Shown here piece after piece: positions 44,579-54,170 of a stretch of 54,170 nt of DNA; the stretch's first letter is position 1, and every line of letters begins with the position of its first letter. Under the pieces are notes generated by a model. That model did no database searches, had not been told where the DNA came from, and was given only the letters and a program-made list of their open reading frames with translations. Where the stretch lies: NCBI GenBank assembly GCA_012730105.1, contig JAAYBJ010000046.1:1-54170 (forward strand), read 5' to 3'. The translations under genes and the position numbers were made by a program. The DNA is from Candidatus Hydrogenedentota bacterium (lineage in GTDB: Bacteria; Hydrogenedentota; Hydrogenedentia; Hydrogenedentales; CAITNO01).

Positions 44579-46897
44579 TTAACGCTTTCTGCGAGCCACC
44601 CAAGCGCCACCAGCGCTCAAGGTCAGGATAAGCATGGAGAGCGTGGCAAGGCCACCCACCGGCATGGGCCCTACCTCGCGAACCGATACCTTTATGGGGC
44701 CATAGGTCTTTTCAGGATATATGCCGCCGACCTTTGTCGGCCCCAAATACACACAGGAGTAGTCTCCGGCGTCGCCCAGTTCGGCGGCCGCGATGTCCAG
44801 CGTGCGGGAGTCAGCGCCCGTAATATGCCCATCCTTGTCGTTCGCCAGGGGAACCCCATTACGATACCATTGGTAGGTGGATTTATAATAGGGGCGCTCC
44901 ATAAGGGCAATACGCACGAAATCACCCGTCACGTAATTTCCTTCTCCCGTCTTGGGGGTCAAATTAGGATCAAGCGTCGCGTTAACATAGGCCGCCATCC
45001 CATCCCGGGCAAAGTAGGCGTATTCCTGGAAATTTCTCCACGTATCACCATCGGCATCGCCGAAAAAGGCAAGGAATCGGCTCAAAAACTGTTCCGTATT
45101 CGAAATATCAAAGGGCGTCAATGCGGAGGGGTCCGTATTGGTCGGGAATTCTTCAATAGTATCCAAGAGCATTACCAGGGTGGACACCAGGAATGTCGAG
45201 TAATTATCCCCGACGGTATAGAATCCGGCCAAGACAGTATCTATACCCGGCAGAATAATGTCCGCCAGTCCGCCCACGCCGCCGAGGGCCGTCTGGACAC
45301 TGGCGATATTGAGATCCCAAGCGGTACGCACGTCCTGGTAGGTCAGACCGCCCGTAGCGCTCAAATCAAGGTCAGGCCGTTTTAAAACAGCATCAATCAC
45401 CATGAACTCGTACAAATCCAACAACCCGTTTCCGGGAATAACAAAGGGATCTTCGAGGCTTCCATCCTGTGTAAAATTGCCGTTGACATCGAAATGGTCC
45501 GGATTAAAACTGAAGCCATACTCACTGAGAAGATGCTCATAGGCCTGCGACGCCATGTACAGGAATTGCATAGAACCCGCGAAATCTTCATCCGTGGCTG
45601 CCGGGATGTCTTGAAACTCATAGGTGCCGTTGTACACGAAAAGGCCGTTGCCCGCGCCCGGGCCGCCAAGAGCGACACCAGTGTCCGCGCGGAGGATGGA
45701 GTCATCATCGAGCACCTTGATCTGGGCCGCTTCCATGGAACTGCCCATGTCCACAGTGACCATATACACGTCCGCGGGGCCGGACGCCGGCTCCACGCTG
45801 ACCACGTCCATGGCCTTCATGCCCGCCTTGGTATTGATATAGACCTCAAAATCGCTCACGTCTACCCCCGTAACCGGGTGCGTAAAGGTTACCTGGAATT
45901 GATAGGTGGCCTTATTGCTCAGCGGAAGAATCTCCAGCGCCTTGGGATAATTTAGCCATTCCTCAATATGCAGGCCAATGGCACGTCGCGCCACATGGGC
46001 ATACCCTTCGGCCGTCAAATGAATATCCTGGTCAATGTAGGAAGCCATCGGCGACAGATATTGGGGATAGCCTCCCGGCCAGAAGGTGCACTCCGGATCC
46101 GCAGGATCGTTGCAGGGATAGGGTGCCACGCCCGGGGCAATATCTTCAGGAGGATAGCCATCTTCGGGATAATCTCCCGTCGGAATCCCGAACGTGTGCT
46201 GCATCAGGCCGAAGTTCATGACAAACTCGACCCGGTCACGTTCGAGGGCAAGCTCACGCATGCGCTCCTGTACGGCCACAAAAGACAAATGCATATCCTC
46301 AACCGTGTAGGACCCTTCAGGTTCGCGGGCGCCGTAATCGTAACTGAGAATCACTACGCGGATATCCGGTCGAACACTAAGGATGTGATCAACAAGGATT
46401 CCCACCTTTTCCTTGACGCTAAGGGCCAGCCAATCCATACATTCAGTCGGAGTTGTCCAAGGGGGACCGTTGGGGTATCGGTAACAGTCTTCAAACTCCA
46501 CCTCCCGATAATAATCCGTAGGGTCAACACCAACGGTGCCGCGTAATATGTCGTTGCCGCCCAAGGTCATGACCACTACGTCTATGTTGGGGTACTTGGT
46601 CAGTTCCTCTGTTAGTACTTGTTGATAATTACGTTCGATCATCTCATAGACGCGCGCGCCCATCTCCGCCGTCCGATTGCCCACTTCGATCCAGCGCTCA
46701 AGGCCCGGATACTCCGGCAACACATTCTTGAACGTCCTGAAAGCCAGAAGGAAACCCGTCCAACTATCACCAGCCAGCATAATCCGGGGGACAGGTTCCG
46801 CTGACGCGGGACTGGCACCCCCGCACAAAACTGCGGCAATAACCACCACCATCATTCTCATCATCCAAAGATACATAGAATTTCGTTTTTTTGACAT
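44579..46897 (-). CDS. Secreted SGNH/GDSL hydrolase with Ig-like domain and C-terminal sorting signal
   Basis: The 772-residue protein starts with a signal peptide (MMVVVIAAVLCGGASPASA). Residues about 38-310 form an SGNH esterase/lipase domain: GDS in IMLAGDSWTGF, GGND in VVMTLGGNDILRG, and the catalytic Asp-His in DQDIHLTAEGYAHVA. A beta domain (about 320-430) and a helical region follow. Residues about 665-740 resemble an Ig fold (YQWYRNGVPLANDKDG, DAGDYSCVYLGP). The end, PMPVGGLATLSMLILTLSAG then ARRKR, is a Pro-Gly motif, hydrophobic span and basic tail, like CTERM-type sorting signals. AAGGAG precedes the ATG. Ester substrate unknown, perhaps acetylated glycans. Confidence 0.82.
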   Translation of the reverse strand: MSKKRNSMYLWMMRMMVVVIAAVLCGGASPASAEPVPRIMLAGDSWTGFLLAFRTFKNVLPEYPGLERWIEVGNRTAEMGARVYEMIERNYQQVLTEELTKYPNIDVVVMTLGGNDILRGTVGVDPTDYYREVEFEDCYRYPNGPPWTTPTECMDWLALSVKEKVGILVDHILSVRPDIRVVILSYDYGAREPEGSYTVEDMHLSFVAVQERMRELALERDRVEFVMNFGLMQHTFGIPTGDYPEDGYPPEDIAPGVAPYPCNDPADPECTFWPGGYPQYLSPMASYIDQDIHLTAEGYAHVARRAIGLHIEEWLNYPKALEILPLSNKATYQFQVTFTHPVTGVDVSDFEVYINTKAGMKAMDVVSVEPASGPADVYMVTVDMGSSMEAAQIKVLDDDSILRADTGVALGGPGAGNGLFVYNGTYEFQDIPAATDEDFAGSMQFLYMASQAYEHLLSEYGFSFNPDHFDVNGNFTQDGSLEDPFVIPGNGLLDLYEFMVIDAVLKRPDLDLSATGGLTYQDVRTAWDLNIASVQTALGGVGGLADIILPGIDTVLAGFYTVGDNYSTFLVSTLVMLLDTIEEFPTNTDPSALTPFDISNTEQFLSRFLAFFGDADGDTWRNFQEYAYFARDGMAAYVNATLDPNLTPKTGEGNYVTGDFVRIALMERPYYKSTYQWYRNGVPLANDKDGHITGADSRTLDIAAAELGDAGDYSCVYLGPTKVGGIYPEKTYGPIKVSVREVGPMPVGGLATLSMLILTLSAGGAWVARRKR

Positions 46898-48167: not shown

Positions 48168-49739
48168 ATGAAAAACGGCTGGGCATGGCTTCATGCGGCG
48201 CTGGTGGTGATGTTGCTGTTACTTGCGGCGGGAGTCCGCCTGTATCGCCTGGATGAAGAGTCCCTGTGGCTGGACGAAAATATCACGTGGGACAAGATTG
48301 AATCCCCCGGGTTACAGGACTATATTTCCCAGTTGCGCACCCGCGACACAACCTTTGTACCCGCCTATTACGCCATTCTGTATTACTTTGGGAAAGTCTC
48401 GAACCATAATGTGACGGCGGCGCGGGCACTTTCCGTGGGCTTCGGCATGCTTACGGTTCTTCTTGTATACCTGATCGCCAGGCGCGCTTTCGGCCCGTCC
48501 GCAGGTATTGCGGCGTTACTGATGGCGGCTTTTTCCAACACTCACGTGTATTATGCCCAGGAGATACGTGTCTATGCCTTGTATTCCACGGCGGCGTTGT
48601 TGTCTATCTGGACGCTGGAAAACGCACTGCGTCAGCCTCATTTCCTGAAGTGGGCTGCGCACCTGTGCGCTAACGCTTTACTGGTGTTCTCCCATTATTT
48701 CGGCGCCCTGTTCCTGATAACAGAAGGCTGTTATCTGCTACTGTTCCATCGCGCCTCGAAGAAGCGCCTGGCGGGGTGGTTTTTCGCCCAGGCGATCCTG
48801 GCGCTGTTGCTGGGCTTGTGGATGCTGGGCATCCGCAGGGACGTGCTGGAGGTCACCACCGGTTTTTTGCAGGTTCCAAAGGCGGAAACGATTGAGTACG
48901 CCCTTACCTGGACGGCCTTGTACTGGCCGCGTTTCTTATATCCCCTCTCCTTCTTGTCGCGTATCCTTCTGGATATGATATTACTGCTGGGCTTCTATTG
49001 TTATTGGACCCGGCAAAATTCCGGTCCAAACAATAGACGATGGCAACAGATGGTGGTATATGTTTTGCTCATGGTCGCACCGGTAGTAGCAGCCCTTGCC
49101 GCCTGCTATCTGGTACGCCCTGTCCTTACCCTTAGGTATGTCATTCCCGCTTCACTCCTGTTCTTCATTCTTGTCGGCGGCGCGGTAGGCTCCCTGCCCT
49201 CCCGCCCGTTGCGTTGGGGGGCGGTGGTATTGCTGGCTTGCCTGATGGGGGCGCATCATCTTGAGGCCGCCCGTCCCTATCGCCCGAACCTGAAAACTGC
49301 GGGCGCAATCCTGAACCAGTCGCAAAGCCCGAATGACGGGCTGGTTCTTGAAAGCGTTGTGGATGCCTTCGCGCGGCGCAGGTACATCCAGTTTCCTGAA
49401 GAACGCACGATCGTCTGCGCCTCCAAAGAAGACTTGCTGGGATCGGTCGCTTCCCTGCTTACCCGCCACGCTGTGGTGTGGGTGCTGTGCGAGTTTGGCT
49501 ATTCGCGCAATTATGCCTCCCTGGAGGAGCTGGAGGCCGTCCTCAAGCAAGGAGACACTACCGTGGAGCGCATGGAACTGTCCTCGGGACATTACACGTT
49601 TATGACGAACTCGAACTGGCCGGATTTAAGCGATATCGGGCAAAGCATCGTGCTCTACCGGGTATCTGGCGCCCGTCTCGAAGAACGAAACCAAGAGCGC
49701 AACATCCTGCCCGCGGCCATTTCCATCTTCAGTTCGTAA
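48168..49739 (+). CDS. GT39-type (ArnT/PMT-like) membrane glycosyltransferase
   Basis: The 523-residue protein has about 11 spans and the signs of dolichyl/undecaprenyl-phosphate-sugar mannosyltransferases. The first extracytoplasmic loop contains EESLWLDENITWDKIE, with the acidic pair expected at the catalytic site, and further on it has HVYYAQEIRVYALYSTAALL, typical of this group. It would transfer a lipid-linked sugar to a protein or lipid acceptor at the periplasmic face. Residues about 370-523 form a soluble C-terminal domain. The ATG is preceded by AGGG. Its last 85 bp overlap the convergent radical-SAM gene. Confidence 0.85.
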   Translation: MKNGWAWLHAALVVMLLLLAAGVRLYRLDEESLWLDENITWDKIESPGLQDYISQLRTRDTTFVPAYYAILYYFGKVSNHNVTAARALSVGFGMLTVLLVYLIARRAFGPSAGIAALLMAAFSNTHVYYAQEIRVYALYSTAALLSIWTLENALRQPHFLKWAAHLCANALLVFSHYFGALFLITEGCYLLLFHRASKKRLAGWFFAQAILALLLGLWMLGIRRDVLEVTTGFLQVPKAETIEYALTWTALYWPRFLYPLSFLSRILLDMILLLGFYCYWTRQNSGPNNRRWQQMVVYVLLMVAPVVAALAACYLVRPVLTLRYVIPASLLFFILVGGAVGSLPSRPLRWGAVVLLACLMGAHHLEAARPYRPNLKTAGAILNQSQSPNDGLVLESVVDAFARRRYIQFPEERTIVCASKEDLLGSVASLLTRHAVVWVLCEFGYSRNYASLEELEAVLKQGDTTVERMELSSGHYTFMTNSNWPDLSDIGQSIVLYRVSGARLEERNQERNILPAAISIFSS

Positions 49740-51124
49740 CGGCCGCGCAGGATATTTACAGCGGAACGCAGACAGCCGAAAAACTGGTACCGTAGTTTTG
49801 TCATGGCCCAAGCACAATACAGCCGGTTTCGAAACCCCATTAGTACCCGGTAGTTGCCGCGCCAGCGGGGGGTCCAATTCAACTCCTCATAACGCTTCCA
49901 GCCGGTTTCACTTTCAAAAGCGTCCGAGCCGGGCAGGGGCGACCAGATGAACAGGCTGATTTCATCCACACCCAGACGGGTGAGTTCCAGCGCGAGGTTG
50001 CGGGTCAGCCTGCGGTCTTCATCGTTCTCGTCCTCGAAACCCAGGACAAACACGCAGTTAAGGCGAATGCCCAGTTTTTGGGAAAACATGACCAGGCGGC
50101 GCAATTTGTCGAAGTCCATGGGTTTGTTCATGTTTTTCAATACACGTGGGGAACCGCTTTCCGGTGCGAAGACGAGATACCGCAATCCCACACGATGGAG
50201 CAGCGCTATCGTTTCTTCATCCATGGTTTCCACTTTGACACCTGACGGGGTGGACAAGCGCACCTGGATGTCGCGCCTCAGCAATTCCTCCGCGAACGCG
50301 GCCGCCTGCTCCCGACGGCAGCCAAACAGTTCATCCTGGATGATAACGTCCGTGATGCCGTGACATTCTTGGGCGTGCTCAATTTCGTCGGCCACGTGCG
50401 CGGCGGACCGGGTGCGCCATTGTCGCCCCCACACCTTGGGCGTGGTGCAGAAGCGGCAGTTATAGATACAGCCTCGCGAGGTGGTCAACACCATGAACCG
50501 TCCCTGCACGGGCGCGTGTTGCATGCCCAAGCCCCAGTAGTTCTCCAGGGGAAGCAGATGCAGGGCCGCAAAGCCGAAACGGTCCAGATCTTCCTCAAAG
50601 GGCGCGGGCGGCGCGGCAAAATCCGGTCCGGCCAGTCCCGGAATGGCACGCGGATCCCCTGTGCCGTCACGAAGACAACGCGCAAGCGCCTCCAGGGGGT
50701 ATTCCCCTTCGCCTATGCATACATAATCGAAACCGCCCTCGATGAACCGTTGCGGCACCACACTTACATGATTCCCCCCGGCAATCAAAATGGTGTCGGG
50801 ATAGTTATCCTTGATGGCGCGGGCTAGCCGCAATACATACTCATGGGACATACCGGAATGCACGCCGATACCGATGAGGGGCGCATCGTCCAGCCGTTCC
50901 ACAATCTCCGTTTCCGTGAGGCCGAAGCCGCTGAGCTGGTCATCTATCCGGAACAGGCGCCGCGGCGCAAGGCCGAACCCATCCAAAATGGAAACGGGAA
51001 TCTCCTTTTTTTCAAGGTATCCCGCAAGGTACAGCAGACCTGTGGGCATAAAGGGAATGCTGCTATACGGGTCACCGGTCAAATGGACCAGGGCGGGATT
51101 GATCAATGTCACCTTGAAGGCCAT
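49655..51124 (-). CDS. B12-binding-domain radical SAM protein
   Basis: The 489-residue protein has an N-terminal cobalamin-binding-like domain (residues 1-170: FMPTGLLYLAGYLEKKEIPV, DYVCIGEGE) and a radical SAM core with the cluster motif GCIYNCRFCTTPK (CxxxCxxC). The core continues with FAPESGSPRVLKNMNKPMD and CVFVLGFEDENDEDR. Relatives carry out methylations or rearrangements on lipids, sugars and antibiotics. The ATG at 51124 lies one base after the methyltransferase stop, in an operon with the FAD enzyme. The C-terminal 28 residues are encoded in DNA that also codes the end of the GT39 gene on the other strand. The substrate is unknown. Confidence 0.85.
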   Translation of the reverse strand: MAFKVTLINPALVHLTGDPYSSIPFMPTGLLYLAGYLEKKEIPVSILDGFGLAPRRLFRIDDQLSGFGLTETEIVERLDDAPLIGIGVHSGMSHEYVLRLARAIKDNYPDTILIAGGNHVSVVPQRFIEGGFDYVCIGEGEYPLEALARCLRDGTGDPRAIPGLAGPDFAAPPAPFEEDLDRFGFAALHLLPLENYWGLGMQHAPVQGRFMVLTTSRGCIYNCRFCTTPKVWGRQWRTRSAAHVADEIEHAQECHGITDVIIQDELFGCRREQAAAFAEELLRRDIQVRLSTPSGVKVETMDEETIALLHRVGLRYLVFAPESGSPRVLKNMNKPMDFDKLRRLVMFSQKLGIRLNCVFVLGFEDENDEDRRLTRNLALELTRLGVDEISLFIWSPLPGSDAFESETGWKRYEELNWTPRWRGNYRVLMGFRNRLYCAWAMTKLRYQFFGCLRSAVNILRGRYELKMEMAAGRMLRSWFRSSRRAPDTR

Positions 51125-51125
51125 A

Positions 51126-51875
51126 TCAGTTCCGTTCGGCCTTAACGCCCAGCCATACCTGCCGGGGATAACATCCTTCGCACTTGGTCCACCGCCACAG
51201 GGCAAGATAAGTGTCGAGCAGGCGGCGACGCAGGCCCGTAGTCTCCGTAATTAACGCGCATATCCCCTGCCAGCGCAGCGTATGGAAACGATTCTCGAGT
51301 AGGGCGCGCAGCGTGTCCGGTCGGTTTCTGCGCAGCGCAAGGCGTTCTTCCCGGGGAAACGCGTGGGCGCACCACACCAGTGGATTCAGGATATTCGGCT
51401 CAAACACAAAAAACGTTCCGCCGGGTTTCAACACCCGGTAAACTTCGTCAAGCACCTGGTCGGCCGACGGTACATGGTGCAGCACGTCCATGGCAATCAC
51501 GGTGTCGAAGGTATCAGCCGGATAAGGAAGGCGCTCCGCGCTGCCCGCGACGGCCAGGAAATGGTCCAGTCGTCGCTCGCGGCAAAAGGCGCGCGCCACC
51601 GCAATCATTTCCGGCGAGCTGTCCACCCCATGCACAGAGCCCGCGCGCGGGGCCAGGGCTTCAAAGTAAATGCCCGAACCGCAACCGATATCAAGCAGCA
51701 TCCCGCACGGACTTTCGCCAAGAAATTCCACGAACATGTTTTCATACAACCGGCGCAGCCGGGGAATCCCGCTCAACCAGAACGGGTCGAACCGGTCATT
51801 AAAGCCGCACCGCGCGAAACGCGTCCCTTTGCCCGCCGCCACGGTTCTTGAATAATGGTCGTCACTGCCGGTCAT
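51126..51875 (-). CDS. Class I SAM-dependent methyltransferase
   Basis: The 249-residue protein has a seven-strand methyltransferase fold: motif I MLLDIGCGSGIYFEAL, motif II VHGVDSSPEMIAVAR, the following acidic loop with FDTVIAMDVLHHV, and motif III LKPGGTFFVFEPN. It resembles small-molecule methyltransferases of the UbiE/COQ5 type. Its ATG overlaps the stop codon of the FAD gene (ATGA), and its stop lies one base before the radical-SAM start, so translation is coupled. The combination of FAD enzyme, methyltransferase and B12 radical SAM protein suggests tailoring of a lipid or sugar. Confidence 0.88.
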   Translation of the reverse strand: MTGSDDHYSRTVAAGKGTRFARCGFNDRFDPFWLSGIPRLRRLYENMFVEFLGESPCGMLLDIGCGSGIYFEALAPRAGSVHGVDSSPEMIAVARAFCRERRLDHFLAVAGSAERLPYPADTFDTVIAMDVLHHVPSADQVLDEVYRVLKPGGTFFVFEPNILNPLVWCAHAFPREERLALRRNRPDTLRALLENRFHTLRWQGICALITETTGLRRRLLDTYLALWRWTKCEGCYPRQVWLGVKAERN

Positions 51876-53281
51876 GGGGATGCGCCCTCAAGATATCGAT
51901 CTTCCGCCTCATAGTCGCGCCCGTGTCGAAGGCGCCCGCCGGCCTTGTCAGCAAGAAAATGATCCGCCACCGTCAGCGAGGCTTCAATGGAATGGTCCAT
52001 GTTGTTATACCAGAAACGGCCGCAGCGGCCGAGGAGGCTCAGATTGTCCCAACTGTCATGGGCCCAGGCGAACATACCCCGCAGTTTGCGCGGATAATTG
52101 AGCACGTACAGGGGGTAGGTGTCGTGGATATGTTCCACATGATAGTCCTCAATGTCTTCCAGGCTGCGCAACATCTTCGCGTGCAGCAGAAACGTCTCCA
52201 CGACACAGTCGAGCCTGGCAGGGTCCCGCCAGGCCGCGGCGTCTTCCGAACAGGAAATTTCCACGCAGATGCCCTCCTTGCCTTCAGGTACAAGGGCGGA
52301 ATTAAAACATCGGGGTAGACAGGCCCGGGACGCCTCCATGGCCTTGTCACCGAAATAACACCATTGAAACTCCGGCTCAACCCGTTTCCGGGTAACGTAA
52401 TTGAAAAGGACGGTGGACATGTAATGCAGCCTGGGCACCGATTCCGGCGCGCAGCCGATGGTCCGCAGTGTATCGAGCGAACCCGACCAGAACACATGCG
52501 ATGCGGGCACTGTTTCTCCCGTTTCTGTGCGCACCGCCGTAATCCGCCCCGCTTCGGAAAGAAGTGCCGCCACGGGCGCGGAAGTCAGAATCCGGCCGCC
52601 CAGCCGCGTGATGCGTTCGGCCAGCCTTTCCGAAAACACGCCGATCCCCCCGGACCGGGGATATATAAATTGCGTGTCCGGCGCGTTGGATCGGAGCACG
52701 GACTTGGCAACCCCCCACAGTGACCCGGTATCCACGCGCTTGTCGATGGTGGCCCGGTCAATACCCGTTACCGCCCAGTCCCGGTGCAGGTTGGAACAGG
52801 TGTAGTCCAGAAATTTTTCCGTATAAGGCTGAAAAAACGTTCGGTATAAAACACGGCCATACCGTTCGATAATATAGTCCTCGAAAGAATCCGTGCGCGC
52901 TTTGCGCCTGCGAAACAAATCGAGGCCCGCCTGAACGAGCAGCGGCAAGGGCAGAGAAACAACGTTCGCAAGCGTCATGGGCCAGGGAAGATACTTGCCA
53001 AAAAGAAACAGGGTGGAATTGCGGCGTATCCAGTGATAATCCTCGCCAAGAATTTCAAACACGAAGCGGTTCACCCGGTCACTGTCTGAATGGAAACGGT
53101 GCGGACCGATATCAAAGGTGGCGCCGTTCGCGTATGAAAAACTTCTTGCCAGGCCGCCGACCGTCTTTTCTCTTTCAAGAATTACTACAGGCACGCCGGC
53201 CTCCGCCAATTTCAATCCCAACGTGAGACCGGCAACACCCGCGCCGACAATGACGACCGGAAGGTCCTGATGATTTTCCAT
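51872..53281 (-). CDS. FAD-dependent UDP-galactopyranose mutase/protoporphyrinogen-oxidase-like enzyme
   Basis: The 469-residue protein starts with a dinucleotide-binding fold (PVVIVGAGVAGLTLGLKLAE then VVILEREKTVGGLARSF). ATFDIGPHRFHSDSDRV and FIYPRSGGIGVFSERLAERI, in the FAD-binding region, are typical of the amine-oxidase/UDP-galactopyranose mutase superfamily. It could interconvert a nucleotide sugar or oxidise a lipid; the sequence does not settle this. AGGAG lies five to six bases before the ATG at 53281. The frame is open to 53569 but that part has no homology and crosses a terminator-like hairpin. It is the first gene of an operon with the methyltransferase and radical-SAM genes. Confidence 0.82.
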   Translation of the reverse strand: MENHQDLPVVIVGAGVAGLTLGLKLAEAGVPVVILEREKTVGGLARSFSYANGATFDIGPHRFHSDSDRVNRFVFEILGEDYHWIRRNSTLFLFGKYLPWPMTLANVVSLPLPLLVQAGLDLFRRRKARTDSFEDYIIERYGRVLYRTFFQPYTEKFLDYTCSNLHRDWAVTGIDRATIDKRVDTGSLWGVAKSVLRSNAPDTQFIYPRSGGIGVFSERLAERITRLGGRILTSAPVAALLSEAGRITAVRTETGETVPASHVFWSGSLDTLRTIGCAPESVPRLHYMSTVLFNYVTRKRVEPEFQWCYFGDKAMEASRACLPRCFNSALVPEGKEGICVEISCSEDAAAWRDPARLDCVVETFLLHAKMLRSLEDIEDYHVEHIHDTYPLYVLNYPRKLRGMFAWAHDSWDNLSLLGRCGRFWYNNMDHSIEASLTVADHFLADKAGGRLRHGRDYEAEDRYLEGASP

Positions 53282-53543: not shown

Positions 53544-54170
53544 TCAACGGTTGCCGAGTTTACTAACAACCGTCAAGGATGCAAGGCAAAGCCCAATGAG
53601 CAGCCAGTCACCCAGAAGACGCTTAACCGCAGCCGGCGACATCTCCTTCGAACCACATCCGGAGAAGCAACCACAACTGTCTTCACCTTCACCTTCAGAC
53701 GGCGTCTCCCCTTCGCCTTCGCCCGGTGTTTCCCCTTCGCCTTCTACAGGCGTTTCACCTTCGCCTTCGGCGGGCACTTCTGCTTCACCTTCTGCAGGTG
53801 TTTCTCCTTCACCTTCAATCAGCGTTTCACCCTCGCCTTCGGCAGGCACTTCGCCTTCGGCAGGCACTTCGCCTTCGCCTTCGGCAGGCACTTCGCCTTC
53901 ACCTTCGGCAGGTACTTCGCCTTCACCTTCGGCAGGCACTTCGCCTTCACCTTCGGCAGGGACTTCACCCTCGCCTTCAACCGGCATTTCACCTTCACCC
54001 TCAACCGGTGTTTCACCTTCACCCTCAACCGGTGTTTCACCCTCGCCTTCGCTGGGCACTTCGCCTTCACCTTCTAAGGGGGCTTCACCCTCACCTTCAA
54101 GAGGCACTTCACCCTCACCTTCAAGAGGCACTTCACCCTCACCTTCAAGAGGCACTTCACCCTCACCTTC
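53544..54170 (-). CDS. EGEGE-repeat surface protein, C-terminal part (5' end outside window)
   Basis: The open frame reaches the window edge. It encodes about 20 units of an 8-residue acidic repeat ([16 protein letters not shown] and variants), one of them shortened to six residues (PAEGEV), matching 24-bp and 18-bp DNA units. The end is [20 protein letters not shown] followed by [20 protein letters not shown] and KLGNR: a Cys-rich motif, a hydrophobic span and a basic tail. EGEGE linkers with such an end are typical of surface proteins in Lentisphaerota and Hydrogenedentota-like genomes and are thought to be sorting signals. The functional domain lies outside the window. Confidence 0.85.
53690..54170. 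repeat. 24-bp coding tandem repeat (EGEGE)
   Basis: The forward strand shows CTTCACCTTCGGCAGGCA-like units repeated about 20 times, mostly 24 bp long, one 18 bp. Codon variants differ between units, so it is an old array with local, more recent duplications (four PAEGEGEV units in a row at 53874-53969). Confidence 0.9.

Follow-up and report, generated by a model that had tools for sequence, protein, structure and literature searches.

The window analysed in this study is a whole contig (C330) of 54170 bases from a metagenome-assembled genome of the phylum Hydrogenedentota, and the frame of a tail-bearing protein runs off its end. The partial coding sequence occupies positions 53547-54170 on the minus strand and its stop codon lies at 53544-53546 (-). 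There are 208 residues of the protein to be seen, while the 5' end is lost at the contig end. Because the contig ends inside the frame, the N-terminus of the protein and any signal peptide are missing. The part that is present begins with an acidic repeat of approximately 19 units of the form [VTMA]P[VALSG]EGEGE (53682-54170, -), likely a flexible spacer. It is followed by the cysteine motif SCGCFSGC (53655-53678, -; first Cys codon at 53673-53675, -), which was assigned from the sequence and from its conservation in the family. Further, there is a linker of 14 residues with the common KR pair (53613-53654, -), a hydrophobic span of 17 residues with the family signature GD(W/L/F/Y)LLxGL (53562-53612, -) and the basic C-terminal end KLGNR (53547-53561, -). 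The first-pass annotation had described an EGEGE repeat with a Cys-rich C-terminal tail at 53544-54170; its coordinates were exact, and the KLGNR end and the CGC...GDWLL form had been read correctly from the sequence.

The EGEGE repeat of this protein has a period of 24 bp and its synonymous codons vary (GAA 52 and GAG 11; GGT 27 and GGC 15). An antisense frame over the repeat reads SPSPSP and is a by-product of it. Two contig ends of the host genome fall inside EGEGE repeats, that of the window and that of contig C342 (L093). Such repeats appear to break short-read assembly, therefore both the counts of tail proteins and their N-termini are incomplete. Downstream of the tail gene and on the same strand (49655-53281, -) there are genes for a protein resembling FAD-dependent oxidoreductases or UDP-galactopyranose mutase, for a methyltransferase and for a B12-binding radical SAM protein, none of which scored above an NCBIfam cut-off.

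We compared the tail with the rest of the host genome. A single tail of 45 residues, used as a BLAST query, found 33 further places in its own genome, 20 of them at E values between 1.5e-8 and 1.4e-3 and 19 below 1.3e-3, and a profile built from 27 tails (A1) gave 37 own-genome matches at E 1.8e-4 or better. In almost every case the match formed the C-terminal end of an open frame. Similarity of this degree over 45 residues is far above chance. A genome-wide collection of GDWLL-type tails had been proposed on the basis of the window, and it yielded approximately 37 tail-bearing proteins in the host genome, mostly secreted.

The consensus of the tail consists of an acidic stretch, a [G/A/S]-C-[G/C]-C motif, a linker of approximately 10-20 residues that often ends with KR, the span (L)GD(W/L/F/Y)LLxGL and a short basic end. 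When only the hydrophobic part was used as a profile over all collected loci, we obtained 83 distinct tails. A cysteine was present within 25 residues upstream of the span in 82 of these 83, against a background Cys frequency of 0.5%; the count is partly circular and an upper estimate, since the loci were mostly picked with Cys-containing queries. A partial guard against this circularity is provided by L024, L026 and L030, in which own-genome BLAST aligned only residues 15/16-40 of the query, past the cysteines, and the upstream Cys was nevertheless there. The tail is thus neither confined to a single protein nor devoid of conserved cysteines, the outcome that the first-pass annotation had named as adverse to its reading.

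Other positions were scored in 79 tails. Glycine directly preceded the first Cys in 53, and the G, the D and the second G of the span were kept in 71. The distance from the start of the span to the C-terminal end was 18-26 residues in nearly all tails. Lysine or arginine was found among the last 8 residues of all 79, and several own-genome tails were weakly basic at the end. Each tail had between 1 and 6 cysteines, which for the most part lay 10-24 residues upstream of the span, and 12 of the 79 tails had only one.

The segment before the tail was of the EGE type in 50 of the 79 cases, EF-hand or dockerin-like in 13 and of another kind in 16. The acidic repeat had been taken as a spacer through the envelope; as a common element this holds, but it is not a required one, because the spacers vary (EGEGE, EF-hand or dockerin-like, or none). 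The acidic EGEGE spacer is therefore common but optional.

The bodies that carry the tail are unrelated to one another. They include a C25 gingipain-like peptidase with PASTA, a papain-type peptidase with PKD and a trypsin-like peptidase, as well as beta-helix/NosD, GLUG, InlB-type B repeat, Fn3, Ig-like and CHRD proteins. A simple rule detected an N-terminal signal peptide in 16 of 24 carrier frames. The misses were mostly frames cut at contig or region ends, and in one further miss (L080) a signal peptide was present by eye. Nearly all full-length carriers have an N-terminal signal peptide, and the window protein is too truncated to show one. Since the module is common to unrelated secreted proteins and holds a fixed C-terminal place, we regard the tail as a sorting domain.

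We also looked for the tail in related genomes, another check that had been suggested. Profile A1 detected it in every one of the 17 genomes that make up the host's family, in which there are 3-37 copies each. The host's relatives contain approximately 300 more matching tails. A broader profile built from 44 tails (A3) was run on 68 Hydrogenedentota genomes and matched in 35 of them. By family, the A3 copies numbered 3-37 in that of the host (f1), 9-27 in five genomes of f11, 3-6 in two of f10, 6 in f9 and 1-2 in f3, and the large family f5 was nearly devoid of them. The closest named sequences were those of the Candidatus Hydrogenedentota genomes UR.bin34 (L069), where two tail proteins stand in tandem, and CSSed162cmB_64 (L070). 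A scan of 84,980 species with the narrow pattern [TSL][LI]GDWLLIG returned matches in Hydrogenedentota only, plus one doubtful match in Sulfurovum (L071); no open frame of any notable length contains a tail at that locus, and the match was taken as chance. The tail is likely restricted to the phylum Hydrogenedentota, as far as a scan with this narrow, strict pattern indicates. In the f3 genomes G018 and G026 (L203, L204), which have one or two tails, a conserved gene immediately precedes a tail gene; it looks by eye like a PilT-type ATPase and is 88% identical between the two. A dedicated protease beside the tail was sought in both genomes, and no protease was adjacent.

Next to known sorting signals the tail stands apart in several respects. 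An LPXTG-like motif is plainly absent from it, and neither a PEP nor an IPTL motif precedes the span, where only scattered matches below model thresholds were seen. When 27 and 44 tails were searched against NCBIfam (June 2026), and the 44 also against Pfam, the only matches to models of other sorting signals were weak and scattered, and no such match recurred in more than 4 tails. The kind of signal is already known, and no public family model (NCBIfam, Pfam) describes the Hydrogenedentota tail. None of the papers searched links Hydrogenedentes to PEP-CTERM or to the sorting of proteins by their C-terminus, and we found nothing on Hydrogenedentota surface proteins. The proposal of a lineage-restricted tripartite signal, with cysteine in the place of LPXTG or PEP, is supported by the 37 proteins in the host genome and by the 35 of 68 Hydrogenedentota genomes.

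The closest likeness is to MYXO-CTERM, the target of the myxosortase MrtX in Myxococcota (PMC11980579). Both signals have a short GCGC-type Cys motif, a hydrophobic span and a basic end, both occur in dozens per genome, and the carriers of both are secreted adhesins and hydrolases (PMC11980579). In Myxococcota the cleavage of TraA by MrtX depends on the Cys, and lipidation has been proposed, as yet unproven (PMC11980579). The span of the Hydrogenedentota tail differs by its GD(W/L/F/Y)LLxGL signature and is often preceded by a KR pair, and the basic end is weaker. We did not place it in the MYXO-CTERM class because both a match to the model and the enzyme were looked for and neither was found: the MYXO-CTERM model TIGR03901 matched none of 44 tails even with E values up to 10 allowed, and there was no myxosortase passing its model. 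JDVT-CTERM, the target of MrtJ, is also tripartite and contains Cys, and one CPBP protein of the host (C199) is nearest to MrtJ. However, the host has many targets per genome and not one adjacent target, and the best E value of the JDVT-CTERM model was 0.23, in 1 of the 44 tails. The IPTL-CTERM consensus contains LSEWGLI. Its enzyme, exosortase H (XrtH), is present in the host genome, and an acidic-aromatic pair heads the span in both signals (EW in IPTL, DW in the tail), whereas the tail has the Cys motif and no IPTL motif, and the presence of XrtH does not clearly track it. GlyGly-CTERM, the target of rhombosortase, is tripartite like the tail, but a GlyGly motif is not a signature of the latter.

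The tail is real, widespread and undescribed; most likely it represents a new form, particular to this lineage, of the Cys-type signals for C-terminal sorting. With reasonable though not high confidence, we interpret it as an invariant-cysteine-type sorting and anchoring signal, confined to Hydrogenedentota as far as tested, with modification of the Cys and removal of the span. It looks like the MYXO-CTERM class and, by analogy, probably works like it too. Carriers would be exported by the N-terminal signal peptide seen in the sequences of the full-length ones. Their C-terminal span would halt them in the inner membrane, leaving the basic end on the cytoplasmic side. The G-C-G-C motif would be displayed at the outer face, where a membrane enzyme would most likely modify the first Cys, presumably with a lipid as proposed for MYXO-CTERM. 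An intramembrane protease would then cut off the GDWLLxGL span, and adhesins and hydrolases would be left anchored on the cell surface. In the window protein the EGEGE repeat would serve as a flexible acidic spacer. C-terminal sorting signals show which proteins a bacterium displays on its surface, and Hydrogenedentota are known mainly from metagenomes. With the tail as a guide, 37 proteins of the host genome can be listed as probable adhesins and hydrolases of the surface. No known protease was clearly co-distributed with it, and this makes the tail well suited to a search for a new sorting enzyme, as well as for the enzyme that modifies the Cys of such signals.

A protease or sortase co-occurring with the tail had been expected. 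We identified four CPBP genes, one exosortase and one rhomboid as candidates in the host genome. The single rhomboid reached 34.5 bits with the rhombosortase model, below the cut-off of 84. No protein in the 68 Hydrogenedentota genomes passed the Mrt_core cut-off (host best 30.3 vs 100 bits), and the best score came from a tail-less genome, so this family was rejected. The MrtJ-like CPBP C199 scored 40.8 bits against a cut-off of 75; it was discarded as an obligate enzyme, as it is absent from the tail-rich, near-complete genomes G001, G005, G008 and G013. Another CPBP, C126, was uninformative as a marker, since it occurs in nearly all sampled genomes, with the tail and without it alike. The expectation was not supported: no CPBP, Mrt_core or XrtH protein clearly tracks the tail, and its partner is therefore either an enzyme of general function or one yet to be recognised. 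That the Gly-Cys and GDxLLxGL signal belongs to a system of Hydrogenedentota's own, and that the membrane enzyme serving it falls into none of the known sortase, exosortase, rhombosortase and myxosortase families, is a tentative proposal on our part. It is similarly doubtful, though conceivable, that the tail is a true relative of MYXO-CTERM and JDVT-CTERM cut by a CPBP-family protease which current models miss. The shared architecture and Gly-Cys-Gly-Cys motif, the nearness of C199 to MrtJ and the one core CPBP gene in nearly all genomes sampled speak for such a relationship. Against it, of 27 tail-rich genomes no more than 5 had a clear C199 orthologue, the core CPBP is equally frequent in tail-less genomes, and none of the tails passes the MYXO-CTERM or JDVT-CTERM model, nor any protein of the phylum the Mrt_core cut-off.

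The core CPBP gene C126 (L066) is conserved across the order and lies beside GNAT genes, an ABC transporter pair and mnmE/jag-like genes; a protein of 622 residues near it looks by eye like a peptide-maturation enzyme. At another locus (L067, G000 C7) there are two CPBP-like genes, whose products are probably inactive as glutamic proteases, because the EExxxR motif reads PQQFFL or PQQFVL in their sequences.

The readings with a CPBP protease or XrtH as the enzyme overlap with the sorting-signal interpretation; its true competitor is a permanent, uncleaved membrane anchor, whose cysteines, through disulfides or bound metal, would only stiffen the membrane-proximal stalk. The varying number (1-6) and spacing of the cysteines would agree with this, as would the lack of a tail-specific protease among the CPBP, Mrt_core and XrtH candidates compared. 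We nevertheless consider it unlikely. Such an anchor would not need the conserved G-D-x-L-L-x-G-L signature or the Gly-Cys motif, the tails recur on unrelated bodies with a constant spacing to the C-terminus, and the 12 single-Cys tails allow no pairing within the tail.

The host exosortase passed the XrtH model (87.3 vs cut-off 86 bits). XrtH was present in 24 of 27 genomes with at least two tails and in 23 of 33 with no or one tail (60 genomes; p = 0.06-0.11, Fisher p = 0.11 for at least two vs fewer tails, uncorrected for ancestry). The latter include the near-complete G017 and G025, and XrtH was not found in the tail-rich G030 (95% complete, 21 tails) and G016. One tail gene of G024 is situated approximately 550 bp upstream of XrtH, and G024 is alone in this among about 25 XrtH neighbourhoods; XrtH, not being clearly co-distributed with the tail, was rejected as its dedicated partner. 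Despite the model match, the frequency in tail-rich genomes and the G024 arrangement, it is thus quite improbable that the tail is a divergent XrtH substrate with GDWLLIGL in place of the LSEWGLI of IPTL-CTERM, given this distribution and a separate MPxxG-type tail in the host genome that suits an exosortase better.

At one locus (L094, G000 C23:23078-24577) exosortase H is fused to the XrtH-associated membrane domain in one gene of 500 residues, and the two are separate adjacent genes in many relatives. The MPxxG-type tail is likelier than the Cys tail to be the better-suited XrtH target. It is seen in the window in a GDSL-like protein (44579-46897, -), which ends with VGPMPVGGLATLSMLILTLSAGGAWVARRKR. 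This end represents a second class of C-terminal signal, with [MV]PxxG, a hydrophobic span and a basic end, and the same class was observed in L065, L090 and L208.
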